From Ruminococcus sp. (GTDB taxonomy: Bacteria; Bacillota_A; Clostridia; Oscillospirales; Ruminococcaceae), in contig NZ_JAEEMU010000037.1 in the NCBI RefSeq assembly GCF_016283395.1, positions 116,105-180,104 on the forward strand: a stretch of 64,000 bases of DNA. The letters are read 5' to 3'. A program made the position numbers and the translations under genes. Numbering within the stretch: position 1 is the first letter of the stretch; every line of letters starts with the position of its first letter. Below, in pieces: positions 9,969 through 44,326 of the stretch. The notes beneath the pieces are model-generated. The model saw only the letters and a program-made list of their open reading frames with translations. It was not told where the DNA came from and ran no database searches.

Positions 9969-10628
9969 TTGAAAAACTATGTTTCAGCATCTGTACTGAG
10001 TGCAGATATGCTCGATTTTAGGAATGAAATAAGAAAACTTGAGAAAAGTGATATTGATATGCTGCATTTTGATGTAATGGACGGCATATTTGTCAATAAT
10101 ATTACATTCGGACTTCCTGTTCTGCAACAGGTAAGAAGTGCGACAGATATGACACTTGATGTTCACCTTATGATCGCAGATCCTTTAAAATATGTAAAAA
10201 GATTTGCTGAATTTGGCGCGGATATTATATCATTTCACATTGAGAGTGAAAGTGATACACTTGAAACAATAAAAGTAATCAAAGAATGTGGTATAAAGGC
10301 GGCGATCGCTATTAAGCCTGCTACCCCGGCGGAAGATGTTTATGAATATCTCCCGTATCTTGATATGGTTCTTGTTATGACTGTTGAGCCAGGATTTGGC
10401 GGTCAGAGTTTTATGCCTGAAACAGTTGATAAGATAAGAAAAATAAGAGAAAGAGTAAGCTCACTTGGAATTGAGGCAGATATTGAGGTCGACGGCGGTA
10501 TAAATGATAAAACTGCATCTATTGTCTTGAATGCAGGGGCAAATGTTCTTGTTTCGGGAAGTTATCTTTTTAAATCAGATGATATGAAGGCAGCAGCAGC
10601 TGTTCTCAGGGAAGGCAAGTCATGCTGA
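9969..10628 (+). CDS. rpe: Ribulose-phosphate 3-epimerase
   Basis: Interconverts ribulose-5-P and xylulose-5-P in the pentose phosphate pathway; cytoplasmic. 219 residues form a TIM barrel with all hallmarks: SVLSADMLDF at the N-terminus, HFDVMDGIFVNNITFG (metal-binding His and Asp), DVHLMI, VLVMTVEPGFGGQSF and EVDGGIN. The start is TTG with a GGAAGAAG site upstream. Its last codons overlap the rnfD-like start by seven bases, so it is the head of an operon with the Rnf-like trio, an unusual partner set. Confidence 0.95.
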   Translation: MKNYVSASVLSADMLDFRNEIRKLEKSDIDMLHFDVMDGIFVNNITFGLPVLQQVRSATDMTLDVHLMIADPLKYVKRFAEFGADIISFHIESESDTLETIKVIKECGIKAAIAIKPATPAEDVYEYLPYLDMVLVMTVEPGFGGQSFMPETVDKIRKIRERVSSLGIEADIEVDGGINDKTASIVLNAGANVLVSGSYLFKSDDMKAAAAVLREGKSC

Positions 10629-11617
10629 AAAAAGCAAGAAAAGAACGCCTTATCTGGCTTGATATCATGATAACTCTTCTCACGCTGGAACTTATGTCTT
10701 ATTTCTATTATGGAATACGTTCTGTAGTGCTTGCAGGAGTTTGTGTTATTACAGCTTTCATTGCTGAAATTGTTTCCCTCAGAATGATGAAGCGACGATT
10801 TACAGCAGATGATCTTACTTGTACATCTGATGCTATGATACTTGCACTGATGTTTCCTGCTGTCATGGATTACAAAATAGCAGTAATAGCAGTTCTTTTT
10901 GCCGTTATTGCTGCAAAGAATGTTTTTGGCGGACGATTGAATATGATCTTTTCGCCTGCGGCTACAGCATATATTTTTGTACTTACTTCATGGGGACATC
11001 AGCTTTTGCAGTACACAGAACCTCATGTAAAGACAGGTATATTTGAGACACCAACAGGTCTTGTTAATTCTGCATCTCATACGTTTAATATGACTGGAAA
11101 TGTTGACCATACTGATTTTGAACTGCTGCTTGGTAATTTCAGCGGACCATGCGGTTCTGTAAGCATACTTCTCCTTGTGGTAGCTGCTGTAGTTCTTATT
11201 TTCAGAAGAAGTATTTCAGCTGGAGCGTTTATCGGAACAATATTCGGCACAGGATTTTTTGCTTGTGTTACTCCTATGATAAGCTCAAGGGCTGATTCTT
11301 TCAAATATTCTCTTGTTATGAATATGGTTCTTTTTTCGGCTATATATATAGTGTCAGATATCAGGATCGCGCCCAAAAGAAACTATTATGCTTTTTTTTA
11401 CGGACTTTTCATAGGTGTCATATCTTATGTACTTGTGCTTACAATGGCAAAAGAAAATGCTATAGTCATTGTTTCCGTCCTCTTTACTCCTATAGCTCTT
11501 GGCTTTAAAAATCTTGAAAAACGGATCGAAAAGGCTGCTTCTGAACATACATCTGAGGAAGATAATGAAGATTCTGAGAATGTAACAGCAGGAAAGGAGA
11601 TGACTGTAAGTGAATAG
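10622..11617 (+). CDS. RnfD/NqrB-like membrane protein, divergent
   Basis: A 331-residue polytopic protein with about 8-10 hydrophobic segments. It aligns by eye with RnfD: AKNVFGGRLNMIFSPAATAY matches the AKQLYGG...NPA block, and GPCGSVSILLLV...IFRRSIS matches the GE-SALAIL...YRR block. In RnfD a Thr in an S-x-A-T-P-L motif carries covalent FMN. The corresponding region near residue 142 reads ETPTGLVN, without that motif. The usual TDPVT block reads SDIRIAP. The C-terminus is a charged tail. It is translationally coupled to rpe and overlaps the next gene by eight bases. I read it as an RnfD relative that may have lost FMN attachment. Confidence 0.75.
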   Translation: MLKKARKERLIWLDIMITLLTLELMSYFYYGIRSVVLAGVCVITAFIAEIVSLRMMKRRFTADDLTCTSDAMILALMFPAVMDYKIAVIAVLFAVIAAKNVFGGRLNMIFSPAATAYIFVLTSWGHQLLQYTEPHVKTGIFETPTGLVNSASHTFNMTGNVDHTDFELLLGNFSGPCGSVSILLLVVAAVVLIFRRSISAGAFIGTIFGTGFFACVTPMISSRADSFKYSLVMNMVLFSAIYIVSDIRIAPKRNYYAFFYGLFIGVISYVLVLTMAKENAIVIVSVLFTPIALGFKNLEKRIEKAASEHTSEEDNEDSENVTAGKEMTVSE

Positions 11618-12245
11618 TCGCAAGAAAAATCTCTTCGGCGGTATTCTTCATGATAATATCGTCCTTTCGGGACTTATGGTCATTTCTCCCGTTATAATAT
11701 GCGGTGATACGCTGAAAAATGCTCTTGCTCTCATATATGCTTTTTCAGCCATAACATTTTTATCGGTTCTTATTTCTTCTTTTGTTCCGAAAAAATTGCC
11801 TTATACTGCAAAAATAATCATTTATGCACTTATCTCTGCGGCAGTTTATATACCTGTAAAACTTGCTGCTGAGGAGTTCTATCCTGATTCTATAGAAAGA
11901 ATTGGCATATATTATCCGCTTCTTGCAGTAAATTCACTTATTGTTTTTCAGACTGAAGCGAAGTTCTTTAAAATGAAAAAGCTTGATATGATGATCTCGC
12001 TAATATTCTGCATTATTGGATTTGATGCGGTTATGCTGTTAACGGGCTTTTTACGTGAGCTTTTTGCATATGGTACTATAAATAGCAAGATCGTTGATGT
12101 GAATACACTTATAAGCGGACTATCACAGCCTTTCGGAGGATTTATATTCCTCGGACTGATGTGTGGTGTATACAGATTTATACGTTCACTTGTATCAAAA
12201 GATCACAGACAGATAAGGAGTGAAGCAAGTGTTTCTGATAAATGA
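11610..12245 (+). CDS. RnfE/NqrD-like membrane protein lacking both cluster Cys
   Basis: 211 residues, about six membrane segments, GTG start. It matches the RnfE pattern: a first helix with MVISPVIICGDTLKNAL in the place of LGLCPLLAVTSTATNAL, and YPLLAVNSLIVFQTEAKFF in the place of IPLIVTNCIVVGRAEAFA. Both Cys that bind the [2Fe-2S] cluster in RnfE/NqrD are thus Ser here (S26 and S109). The FLRELFAYGTI and GGFIFLGLMCG parts are well kept. A Cys at residue 31 is four positions away from the usual ligand. The gene overlaps its neighbours on both sides. Confidence 0.78.
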   Translation: MNSRKKNLFGGILHDNIVLSGLMVISPVIICGDTLKNALALIYAFSAITFLSVLISSFVPKKLPYTAKIIIYALISAAVYIPVKLAAEEFYPDSIERIGIYYPLLAVNSLIVFQTEAKFFKMKKLDMMISLIFCIIGFDAVMLLTGFLRELFAYGTINSKIVDVNTLISGLSQPFGGFIFLGLMCGVYRFIRSLVSKDHRQIRSEASVSDK

Positions 12246-12801
12246 TCTTATTACGCTGCTTGCTGCTAACCTTATATTGTCTCAGGCTTTGGGAACAAGT
12301 ACAATTTTTATTGCAGCAGGAAGCAAAAAAAATCTTGTCGGTACAGCCTGTGTGATAACGCTGTTCACGACTATCGGTTCAGCTGCGGCTTATTTGATAG
12401 ATGCTGAACTTCCGGCATCGTTTTCTGATCTGAGATTATTATTTTATACATTGATAATCGGTATACTCTATATACTTCTCCTTACAGCAGTTTATTATGT
12501 GGGAAGAAGTTACTTTGAGGATTTCCGAAAATATATTCATGTATCTGCCTTTAACTGTGCAGTTATGGGAACGCTTTTTACAATAAGCAAAAGAGCGTCA
12601 ATGGACAGTTCTTTATTTGAACTCGGGGGATATGTTTCTGCCGGATTTGAAGCAGGAATAGGTTTTATTATTGCAGCACTCATTCTTACAGCAGCTTACA
12701 GAAAACTGAATTCTGCAAAAGTTCCTGCTTCTTTCAGAGGATTCCCTGCAATGCTTATATATCTTGGAATTATATCAATGGCAGTATATTCACTTAAATA
12801 A
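12229..12801 (+). CDS. RnfA/NqrE-like membrane protein with one of two cluster Cys
   Basis: I choose the GTG at 12229, eight bases after AAGGAG, rather than the GTG three codons earlier. This gives 190 residues with six membrane segments. The first-helix motif LGLCPF of RnfA is LGTSTI here (Ser at 24 instead of Cys), while the second ligand is kept in FNCAVMG (Cys 110). The C-terminal VPASFRGFPAMLIYLGIISM matches the family closely. It is the last of the trio; rnfB, rnfC and rnfG are not beside it. The reading frame is clean, so it is expressed and conserved rather than decaying. Confidence 0.78.
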   Translation: MFLINDLITLLAANLILSQALGTSTIFIAAGSKKNLVGTACVITLFTTIGSAAAYLIDAELPASFSDLRLLFYTLIIGILYILLLTAVYYVGRSYFEDFRKYIHVSAFNCAVMGTLFTISKRASMDSSLFELGGYVSAGFEAGIGFIIAALILTAAYRKLNSAKVPASFRGFPAMLIYLGIISMAVYSLK

Positions 12802-12832: not shown

Positions 12833-14035
12833 ATGAAGTTCAAAAATAAAGGTAGGAAGATCTATAAGACCAAAGAAAAGAATTACTATGGTAAAAGTCC
12901 TGTTGGGAAAGCTTTTTCTGTAGGTCTGACAGTTCTGCTTATCGGCGGAATAGGTTTTATCGGATACAGTGTAGCTGAGCCTCTGATAAACTATTCAAAG
13001 AAAAAAGGTGATAATACTTCACCGACATCAACTATCTCAGAGAATGAAACAGCAACCGATGAAAATGGTCAGCCTATTACAGAAGAGCCTACTTTAACTG
13101 TTGCCCCTGTACAAAGTGCAGAACAATATCGTGCATATACGCTTGATCCGCTGGATATTTCAGACATTCAAGCAGTAAAAGCTGCTTTGAAGCGCGTTCC
13201 TGTTGATCAGGATATAAAATATGTAGAAGTTCCTCTGAAAGTTAGCGGAGGAGATATCTATTACGCAACAAATAATTATTATGCAAATTCGTCGGGCATA
13301 GTCCGTTCATCGTGTAAGCTCAGTGATATAGTTTCGACAATATCCTCAGCAGGTTATAAGCCGGTTGCAACTGTAAGTACATTTTATGATAATGTTGTGC
13401 CTAATTATTTCCGTGATATGAGCTATCTTACTGTTGAGGATGGTTCACAGTGGATAGATAATAGCGTAGAAGCAGGCGGAAAGCCATGGATGAATCCCTT
13501 TTCACAGGGAGCTGTAAACTATAATAATGATATCGTTGAAGAGGTCGCTGAAGCAGGTTTTGATAAAGTTGTATGCTATGATTTTATCTTTCCTGATTTC
13601 AGACCAAGCGATGTGGAATACCTTGGCGATAAGGTCGTAAGTGCTGACAGATATATGGCTCTTACGTCGGCAGCCAATACGATGTATGAAACAATAATGA
13701 GCAAGGGCTCTTCTATGATACTTGAGGTAAACGCCTCGGATCTTCTTAAAGGAAAAACAGATATACTTCAGCCAATGCTGCTTAAAGTAAACTCTGTAAT
13801 ACTGAATATTGACCTTGATACTATCAGCTATGGTGTGTATACAGATGAAACGGTATACGAGTTTACAGGCACAACGGCAGATAATGTAAGGAAAATGCTT
13901 GATCTTGTAAGTGAGGATGTTGAAGATTTCAATGTTGCTGTAAGAGTTTCAGGTGAAACTCTAAGTACTCAGGATCTTCTTGACGCAAAGGATGAAATAG
14001 TCGAATACGGGTTCGATTCATATGTACTCGGCTAA
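12833..14035 (+). CDS. Membrane-anchored putative glycoside hydrolase (DUF4015/GHL13-like)
   Basis: 400 residues: a basic N-terminus, one signal anchor (about 28-50), a Ser/Thr/Glu linker (about 58-95), then an extracellular domain. WMNPFSQGAVNYNNDIVEEVAEAGFDKVVCYDFIFPD (read in parts: WMNPFSQGAVNYN, then EAGFDKVVCYDFIFP) resembles the W-x-NP...YN...GFDEIQFDYIRFP signature of DUF4015, a predicted TIM-barrel glycoside hydrolase family. The EIQ acid is replaced (KVV), so the catalytic residues are uncertain. It follows the Rnf-like trio by 31 bases with a good AGGAG site and could be part of that operon. Confidence 0.62.
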   Translation: MKFKNKGRKIYKTKEKNYYGKSPVGKAFSVGLTVLLIGGIGFIGYSVAEPLINYSKKKGDNTSPTSTISENETATDENGQPITEEPTLTVAPVQSAEQYRAYTLDPLDISDIQAVKAALKRVPVDQDIKYVEVPLKVSGGDIYYATNNYYANSSGIVRSSCKLSDIVSTISSAGYKPVATVSTFYDNVVPNYFRDMSYLTVEDGSQWIDNSVEAGGKPWMNPFSQGAVNYNNDIVEEVAEAGFDKVVCYDFIFPDFRPSDVEYLGDKVVSADRYMALTSAANTMYETIMSKGSSMILEVNASDLLKGKTDILQPMLLKVNSVILNIDLDTISYGVYTDETVYEFTGTTADNVRKMLDLVSEDVEDFNVAVRVSGETLSTQDLLDAKDEIVEYGFDSYVLG

Positions 14036-43974: not shown

Positions 43975-44320
43975 GTGAGTAGACTATGCGGTAGCGGAAA
44001 CGTTTTAGTTTATGAGGAAAGTCCGGGCATCACAGAGCAGGATAGCTGCTAACGGCAGCCGAGGGCGACCTTAGGGCAAGTGCAACAGAGATATACTGCC
44101 GTCAGTATTGGCGGTGATGGTGGAAAGGCGAGGTAAGAGCTCACCAGAGTGCTGGAGACAGTACTGCTATGTAAACCCTATTCGATGCAACGTCTATTGG
44201 TGCTTGTTATCTTAACGTCTGCTCGGCGGATAATAAGTAATGACGGCTTCAGCTTGTCGGCGACGATAAGCGTAGATAAATTACCGCACACGACAGAACC
44301 CGGCTTATCGGTCTGGTCAC
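43975..44320 (+). ncRNA. rnpB: RNase P RNA (class A)
   Basis: The catalytic RNA that matures tRNA 5' ends. Recognised from GAGGAAAGTCCGGGC (near 44009-44023, P4 5' side), GAGGGCGACC, AGGTAAGAGCTCACCAG and the 3' ACAGAACCCGGCTTATCGG (P4 3' side). GTGAGTAGAC at the 5' end can pair with GTCTGGTCAC at the 3' end, with one mismatch, to form P1, which sets the limits. About 346 nt, within the class A range. It has its own promoter and terminator. Confidence 0.96.
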
Positions 44321-44326
44321 AAAAAA

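Follow-up and report, generated by a model that had tools for sequence, protein, structure and literature searches.

The three genes described here lie at positions 10622-12801 of a 64-kb stretch of DNA (the window) from Ruminococcus sp. (assembly GCF_016283395.1, contig NZ_JAEEMU010000037.1). They follow rpe and encode relatives of the RnfD, RnfE and RnfA membrane subunits of the Rnf complex, called here D, E and A or, together, the trio (Table 1). Genomes, loci and families are given, where needed, by labels with G, L and f. A first reading of the window (the original prediction) had recognised by eye three overlapping genes with clean frames, rpe before them and a predicted hydrolase after them, and all of this stands. 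Successive genes overlap by 7 nt (rpe/D), 8 nt (D/E) and 26 nt (E/A, with the GTG start of A assumed), and 31 nt separate A from the DUF4015 gene. The frames of D, E and A are open throughout, with no internal stop.

Table 1. Genes of the locus and residue positions discussed in the text (window coordinates; A is numbered from its GTG)
Feature	Position	Strand	Evidence or remark
rpe (ribulose-phosphate 3-epimerase)	9969..10628	+	PF00834 1e-72; first gene of apparent operon
D, RnfD-like membrane protein, 331 aa	10622..11617	+	PF03116 3.4e-37
E, RnfE-like membrane protein, 211 aa	11610..12245	+	PF02508 5.2e-24; 7zc6_E 5.7e-7
A, RnfA-like membrane protein, 193 aa from GTG	12220..12801	+	PF02508 9.3e-18; 8ahx_A 2.2e-9
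DUF4015 protein: basic N-terminal tail, one hydrophobic segment, glycoside-hydrolase-like barrel	12833..14035	+	conserved neighbour, not obligate partner
Ser26 of E, cluster-ligand position 1	11685..11687	+	S in 79/79 scorable named loci
Ser109 of E, cluster-ligand position 2	11934..11936	+	S in 80/80 named loci
Ser27 of A, cluster-ligand position 3	12298..12300	+	S in 80/80 named loci
Cys113 of A, sole ligand cysteine retained	12556..12558	+	8ahx_A alignment; C in 80/80 named loci
Ser150 of D, covalent-FMN Thr position (C. tetanomorphum T153)	11069..11071	+	alignment to RnfD
Ser111 of D, riboflavin-contact Asn position (A. woodii N123)	10952..10954	+	alignment
Asp246 of D, riboflavin-site Asp (A. 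woodii D249, C. tetanomorphum D248), retained	11357..11359	+	

By homology and fold, the trio consists of genuine relatives of RnfD, RnfE and RnfA. The Pfam scores of all three exceed the gathering cut-offs; against the NCBIfam rnf models they fall far under them (87 bits for a cut-off of 207 with rnfD, 58 for 213 with rnfE, 49 for 229 with rnfA). Among PDB sequences, D is closest to RnfD (7zc6_D, 2.1e-17), E to NqrD (7xk3_D, 2.2e-8) with RnfE of 7zc6 behind it, and A matches RnfA of 8ahx. Most rows of a loose-threshold PDB search with A were antibody heavy chains, which were taken as chance matches. In the fold comparison, RnfD is nearest to D, with Amt/Rh and urea channels next and far behind. 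Searched with one query per subunit, rnfB, rnfC and rnfG gave no match beside the trio, as had been noted; the same search detects RnfG and RnfB in all eight complete rnfCDGEAB (CDGEAB) loci that served as yardstick. Searched against Rfam with gathering thresholds, the window has no RNA upstream of the trio; its sole match is a bacterial RNase P class A RNA at 43976-44323.

Cofactor positions and selection

In Clostridium tetanomorphum, the ligands of the [2Fe-2S] cluster are C25 and C113 of RnfA and C26 and C109 of RnfE (PMC9588780). The original prediction had given Ser, Ser, Ser and Cys for these positions in the window; the identities are right, and the numbering in A was 3 too low when counted from the GTG. 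By alignment, the window reads S, S, S, C, and so do 80 named loci (Table 1). These are the best 80 of 189 relatives among the 200 stretches that a scan of named genomes gave, and 73 of them are titled Ruminococcus. One E is truncated, leaving 79 scored for its first ligand; the riboflavin-site Asp of D could be scored in 79 and the flavin mononucleotide (FMN) threonine position in 78. The named loci overlap with the G genomes used below (many are the same assemblies), so that neither set is independent of the other.

The trio and the sets like it in other genomes are called stripped here. They number 70 loci (loci from the order, loci from the genus and the window), 69 of them with a D gene. 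The S-x-A-T motif of FMN attachment is missing from D of the window, as had been noted, and no threonine of the NqrB type replaces it. The corresponding column is T in 8/8 CDGEAB loci and S in the 27 loci of the genus and the 78 scorable named loci. Among the 69 stripped loci, T occurs in five, within a poorly aligning linker. A "TP" near Ser150, taken as the FMN threonine by HMMER pairing alone, was rejected: it is not kept in the relatives of the genus. At the riboflavin-contact position N123, asparagine in every CDGEAB locus (8/8) is serine in every genus locus (27/27). The D249 column stays acidic in 67/69 stripped loci and is D in all 79 named loci. Of the ion-path residues, with roles as given in PMC11889175 for Acetobacterium woodii, R67 of E is kept as R or K in 68/69 and N112 of A in 67/69; the column of E115 of E is acidic in 56/69. 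Cys113 of A is Cys in 48/69.

Of the 80 named loci, 66 have the full gene order rpe-D-E-A-DUF4015-hprK-murB-rapZ-whiA, and the other 14 are without genes at one or both ends. Between the window and six relatives (pairs with saturated dS excluded), the ratio of nonsynonymous to synonymous substitution rates (dN/dS) is 0.055-0.082 for D, 0.030-0.062 for E and 0.088-0.114 for A; for linked genes in the same relatives it is 0.051-0.131 (rpe) and 0.044-0.090 (whiA). The trio is under purifying selection, and the ligand pattern, invariant in 80 named loci, is beyond chance. Given that invariance and dN/dS values of 0.03-0.11, the pattern is no product of local decay.

Occurrence, gene order and origin of stripped sets

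A profile of the divergent RnfA was used to search 297 genomes of the order (completeness of at least 90 requested); it matches widely because canonical RnfA is also picked up. The 40 new loci fetched from the top of its list comprise 36 stripped and four canonical ones. With six loci collected earlier, stripped sets occur in at least 42 of the 297 genomes and in at least six families: f1, f7, f15, f23, f24 and, outside the sample, f5 (G040). Two of the contigs, L060 and L061, belong to one genome. Among 393 genomes of the class, 15 gave a match at E 1e-38, nine in the order and six outside it; the six outside are all canonical CDGEAB loci with ligand cysteines, and no stripped set is among them.

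Four ligand cysteines are possible in none of the 70 stripped loci (in L033 and L158, E is without its N-terminus and the first ligand is left unscored), whereas seven of the eight CDGEAB loci have all four. RnfB and RnfG have no match at any of the 70, and RnfC is present at 12. In 57/69 loci, D-E-A occurs without C and without matches to RnfB or RnfG, always with rpe directly upstream and DUF4015 directly downstream on the same strand. The other 12 are C-D-E-A, with rpe next upstream in seven and with DUF4015 downstream in six, absent in four and beyond a contig end in two. Overall, rpe is the next same-strand upstream gene in 64/69, and DUF4015 is next after A in 63/69, in several families.

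Ser/Ser/Ser/Cys is the pattern of Ruminococcus; elsewhere these positions are taken by Ala, Pro, Gly, Asn and further residues, depending on the genus. Among the C-less loci, 30 lie outside the main set of the genus; in these, the first position of E is A in 27 and the second is S, P, A or L; in A, the first is S in 25 and N in four, and the second is C in 16. In the 12 C-D-E-A loci, the two positions of E are F/Y/A/T/C/P and S/G/A/T and those of A are S/R/G/D and C/V/T/S. Two ligand cysteines together occur in one locus only of the 70, L087 (G314), which has C, A, S, C with RnfC and is the only one with Cys at the first ligand of RnfE. G021 carries, besides a normal trio, a second and more divergent one (L046:8413-10512) with rpe and DUF4015 and with ligands A, L, S, C. 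In L059 (8157-9671) and its f7 relatives, the RnfE-like frame has 505 aa (with a provisional start), of which nearly 300 form an N-terminal extension rich in Ala, Pro and Glu.

The RnfC of the C-D-E-A loci has the glycine-rich flavin/NADH motif of the GGxGFPT type in none of the 12. It is kept by RnfC of all eight CDGEAB loci, with one position altered in L062 and in L107, and two positions are changed in RnfC of L203. L062 (7587-13050), the second copy of G054, is a complete rnfCDGEAB with C, G, G, C at the ligand positions, and its RnfC has a long N-terminal membrane-like extension (623 aa).

The genus-specific ligand pattern and the sets with RnfC go beyond the original prediction, and so does a canonical rnfCDGEAB in the nearest genome compared. 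That genome, G001, has 37% of 31-letter words in common with the window and appears to be Ruminococcus flavefaciens YAD2003, so that the window is close to this species; the A protein of L108 (YAD2003) is 97% identical to that of the window. Its complete canonical operon lies at a separate site (L066). Of 36 genomes of the genus, several of them incomplete, 26 have the divergent pair, 22 together with a canonical pair and four without (G003, G005, G017 and G023); four have canonical pairs only, one a partial match (G007) and five none. INDEPENDENCE from Rnf: in G003, the matches to PF03116 (one) and PF02508 (two) all belong to the trio. This genome is 99% complete (G005, G017 and G023 are less complete) and has neither RnfC_N nor rnfB above cut-off; its single FMN_bind and ApbE matches are adjacent to each other and away from the trio. 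In f7, G042, G065, G079 and G118 have only a stripped PF02508 pair and one PF03116, with RnfC_N solely as the linked copy and with no FMN_bind, ApbE or rnfB above cut-off. G197 has a stripped pair only, and G208 both stripped and canonical pairs. Hence the trio occurs in genomes without any canonical Rnf.

A tree of concatenated D, E and A (68 taxa, 715 columns, FastTree) splits stripped from canonical loci (support 0.999); L062 adjoins the stripped loci (0.979), and the f7 C-D-E-A group comes first among them. Support at several deep nodes is low (0.35 at the lowest), and the branches are long. A different picture is given by L203 (2091-8713; G093, f7), a complete four-cysteine rnfCDGEAB with a DUF4015 gene directly after it. 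G093 belongs to the same genus as G042, G065, G079 and G118, whose loci are stripped C-D-E-A-DUF4015. L203 and L059 are 63% identical in D and 53% in DUF4015, and the upstream neighbour is alike by eye. RnfC of L203 groups with f7 RnfC (0.996), whereas the D+E+A tree keeps L203 among canonical copies; we read this as the effect of fast-changing E and A, which would mislead the tree on L203. On our reading, L203 and the f7 loci are a before-and-after pair, with stripping in place within one genus and separately from the rpe-linked sets. The idea that the losses formed one stepwise series passing through f7 was dropped on the evidence of L203. Since complete and stripped operons share neighbours in one genus, stripping probably happened more than once. 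The trio itself is best explained as a redox-dead paralogue, placed after rpe and derived from the membrane core of Rnf (the RnfA/RnfE pair with RnfD).

Possible roles of the trio

Loss of redox function in Ruminococcus is strongly supported. That transmembrane electron transfer is lost there is highly likely, and less so for the forms with RnfC; the trio very probably has a role other than moving electrons. The favoured reading has in our judgement about an even chance: selection would have preserved the Rnf core because it transports or gates an ion or small solute independently of redox chemistry. This reading builds on the lost ligands, purifying selection, the lack of RnfB and RnfG at the loci and the genomes without canonical Rnf, and to this extent the re-purposed core without electron transport of the original prediction is borne out. 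Transport itself (the carrier or channel of the original prediction), suggested by the fold and by some kept ion-path residues, is evenly balanced. PMC11889175 proposes that Na+ passes through the RnfA/E pair of A. woodii and that this path opens when the cluster is reduced. In the trio, the inverted A/E pair would still open or alternate, the cluster having given way to a Ser/Ser/Ser/Cys ring; D would contribute its channel-like fold and conserved Asp; and D, E and A together would form a gradient-driven, redox-independent transporter or gate. The broader proposal, that a redox pump gave rise more than once to an alternating-access transporter free of cofactors, or to a gate driven by a gradient, which perhaps powers a wall-side partner in some lineages, is more tentative and somewhat short of even.

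Several observations weigh against the favoured reading. Lost in Ruminococcus are not only three cluster ligands and N123 of D, but also E88 of A. woodii RnfA, part of an ion-pair network (Leu in 27/27 genus loci), and T111 (Phe or Tyr). The trio is dispensable in some species (G027 and G028, see below). The ligand residues vary between genera, so there is no single conserved chemistry, and a purely redox-free role does not explain the invariant ligand Cys of the genus. Forms with RnfC keep its eight Fe-S cysteines (12/12) and mostly the riboflavin-site Asn (10/12), and D of f7 scores 350 bits to PF03116 (122-131 in the genus). With a near-canonical D and kept RnfC clusters, some redox chemistry may remain in f7, and a short flavin-to-Fe-S path may survive in the C-bearing forms. 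Residue conservation may also be structural only.

The strongest alternative, although unlikely, is that the trio energises or regulates the DUF4015 protein, passing gradient-driven movement to a membrane-anchored, wall-side hydrolase-like domain and perhaps replacing RnfG. DUF4015 follows A in most stripped loci, as said above, and its one N-terminal hydrophobic segment with an outer domain recalls the layout of RnfG (model confidence there is low). The structure model is confident from about residue 100 onward. The solved folds closest to it by Z are Cwp19 (21.9, 266 residues), named a lytic transglycosylase in a paper title, and PgaB (about 19); many glycosidases score 16-18, and the top Foldseek match is Cthe_0052 (4s1a). 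Among the putative catalytic acids, D186, D209 and E237 are acidic in at least 62/63 proteins, and D250 of the window is conserved in fewer than 85%. In 27 Ruminococcus proteins, tail and hydrophobic segment (window 12833-12982) are the most conserved parts, at 93% and 87% pairwise identity versus 57-59% in the outer domain (84% and 77% versus 46-47% in the same comparison over 27 loci), which is unusual for a membrane anchor. Both are much less conserved in other genera and are intact in trio-less species.

Coupling to DUF4015 ranks lower on account of genomes in which the two are separate. L198 (G027, 98% complete) and L199 (G028, 90%) read rpe-DUF4015-hprK, the gap between rpe and DUF4015 being 71 and 11 bases, respectively; both loci lack D, E and A, and neither whole genome has a PF02508 or PF03116 match. 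DUF4015 thus does not need the trio, and D-E-A, gone together, behaves as one module. In a tree of four linked proteins, G028 pairs with G003, which has the trio, and G027 lies outside (supports 1.000 and 0.989), a pattern of two losses of the block or of loss and regain. In the opposite direction, C-D-E-A occurs in G197 and G208 without any PF13200 match, and in G059 and G117 a weak PF13200 match is on a different contig from the stripped set. Contigs of G022, G018 and G007 end in or beside DUF4015 and were not scored as losses. The coupling is partly raised again by L203, where DUF4015 follows a complete operon whose same-genus relatives lost G and B and kept DUF4015.

It is improbable that the trio moves or senses a flavin, with riboflavin bound non-covalently by D. 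The RnfD fold and the nearly constant acidic residue at D249 fit such a role, but the other contact, N123, is Ser throughout the genus, both N123A and D249A of A. woodii RnfD are reported as inactive (PMC11889175), and no FMN riboswitch passes the Rfam gathering thresholds in the window. Less probable still is a persisting metal site, in which the kept Cys with Ser or water ligands would bind another metal or a differently liganded cluster. Cys113 is invariant in the genus; yet sister groups have Ala, Pro, Gly, Phe, Arg and others at the other positions, which cannot ligate, and the locus has no electron donor or acceptor subunits. An alternative membrane module of canonical Rnf, borrowing RnfB, RnfC and RnfG from elsewhere, would suit the 22 genus genomes with both copies and the complete canonical operon of G001. 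It is very improbable, being largely refuted by G003 and opposed by the divergent pair alone in three less complete genomes, by canonical pairs alone in four of the 36, and by the loss of ligands whose Cys mutants in A. woodii are inactive (PMC11889175). A non-functional relic of a duplicated rnf operon, to which the lost subunits and ligands and the clean absence in G027 and G028 could point, has next to no chance, as it is already contradicted by the dN/dS values, the invariance over 80 loci and the D-E-A order kept across families.

Relation to known systems

The trio resembles the Rnf complex (7zc6, 8ahx, 9eri) in the homology and order of D, E and A, and differs from it by the missing four-Cys site, FMN threonine, G and B and, in Ruminococcus, C. 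With Na+-NQR it has the core fold of NqrB, NqrD and NqrE in common, but NQR retains its cofactors and has NqrA and NqrF; NqrA, NqrC and NqrF were not recognised among the frames around the trio (NqrA and NqrF were not searched genome-wide). NQR is described as a duplicated rnf operon minus rnfB (PMC4014512), and the stripped trio would be a different fate of duplicated rnf. Reduced RnfD systems are already known: in NQR/RNF-like two-subunit complexes, an RnfD fused to an NAD domain is paired with an RnfG-like FMN_bind protein to pass electrons outward, and there too the flavinylation Thr of RnfD is described as not conserved (PMC8238504, PMC10979944). As described there, they keep FMN_bind and have no RnfA/E, whereas the trio keeps RnfA/E and lacks both FMN_bind and the NAD domain (D is PF03116 only). 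Any likeness of D to Amt/Rh ammonium channels and urea transporters would be at the level of fold. Among the titles and abstract openings listed in searches of open-licence PMC, none describes an RnfA/E set without its cluster.

The ion-carrying subunit of Rnf and NQR is in dispute: RnfD is the Na+-translocating subunit according to PMC9588780, while PMC11889175 places the path in RnfA/E, gated by the cluster, with RnfD not involved. A natural D-E-A that selection maintains without cluster ligands, flavin Thr, G, B and C asks what the core does when electrons do not pass, and the ion-handling part of the pump could become testable by itself. If the favoured reading is true, this would be, to our knowledge, the first machine of the Rnf/NQR family lacking redox chemistry. 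Surveys of gene presence in the rumen and gut could meanwhile count such proteins as Rnf, because some of their source names read "electron transport complex" RnfE or RnfA.

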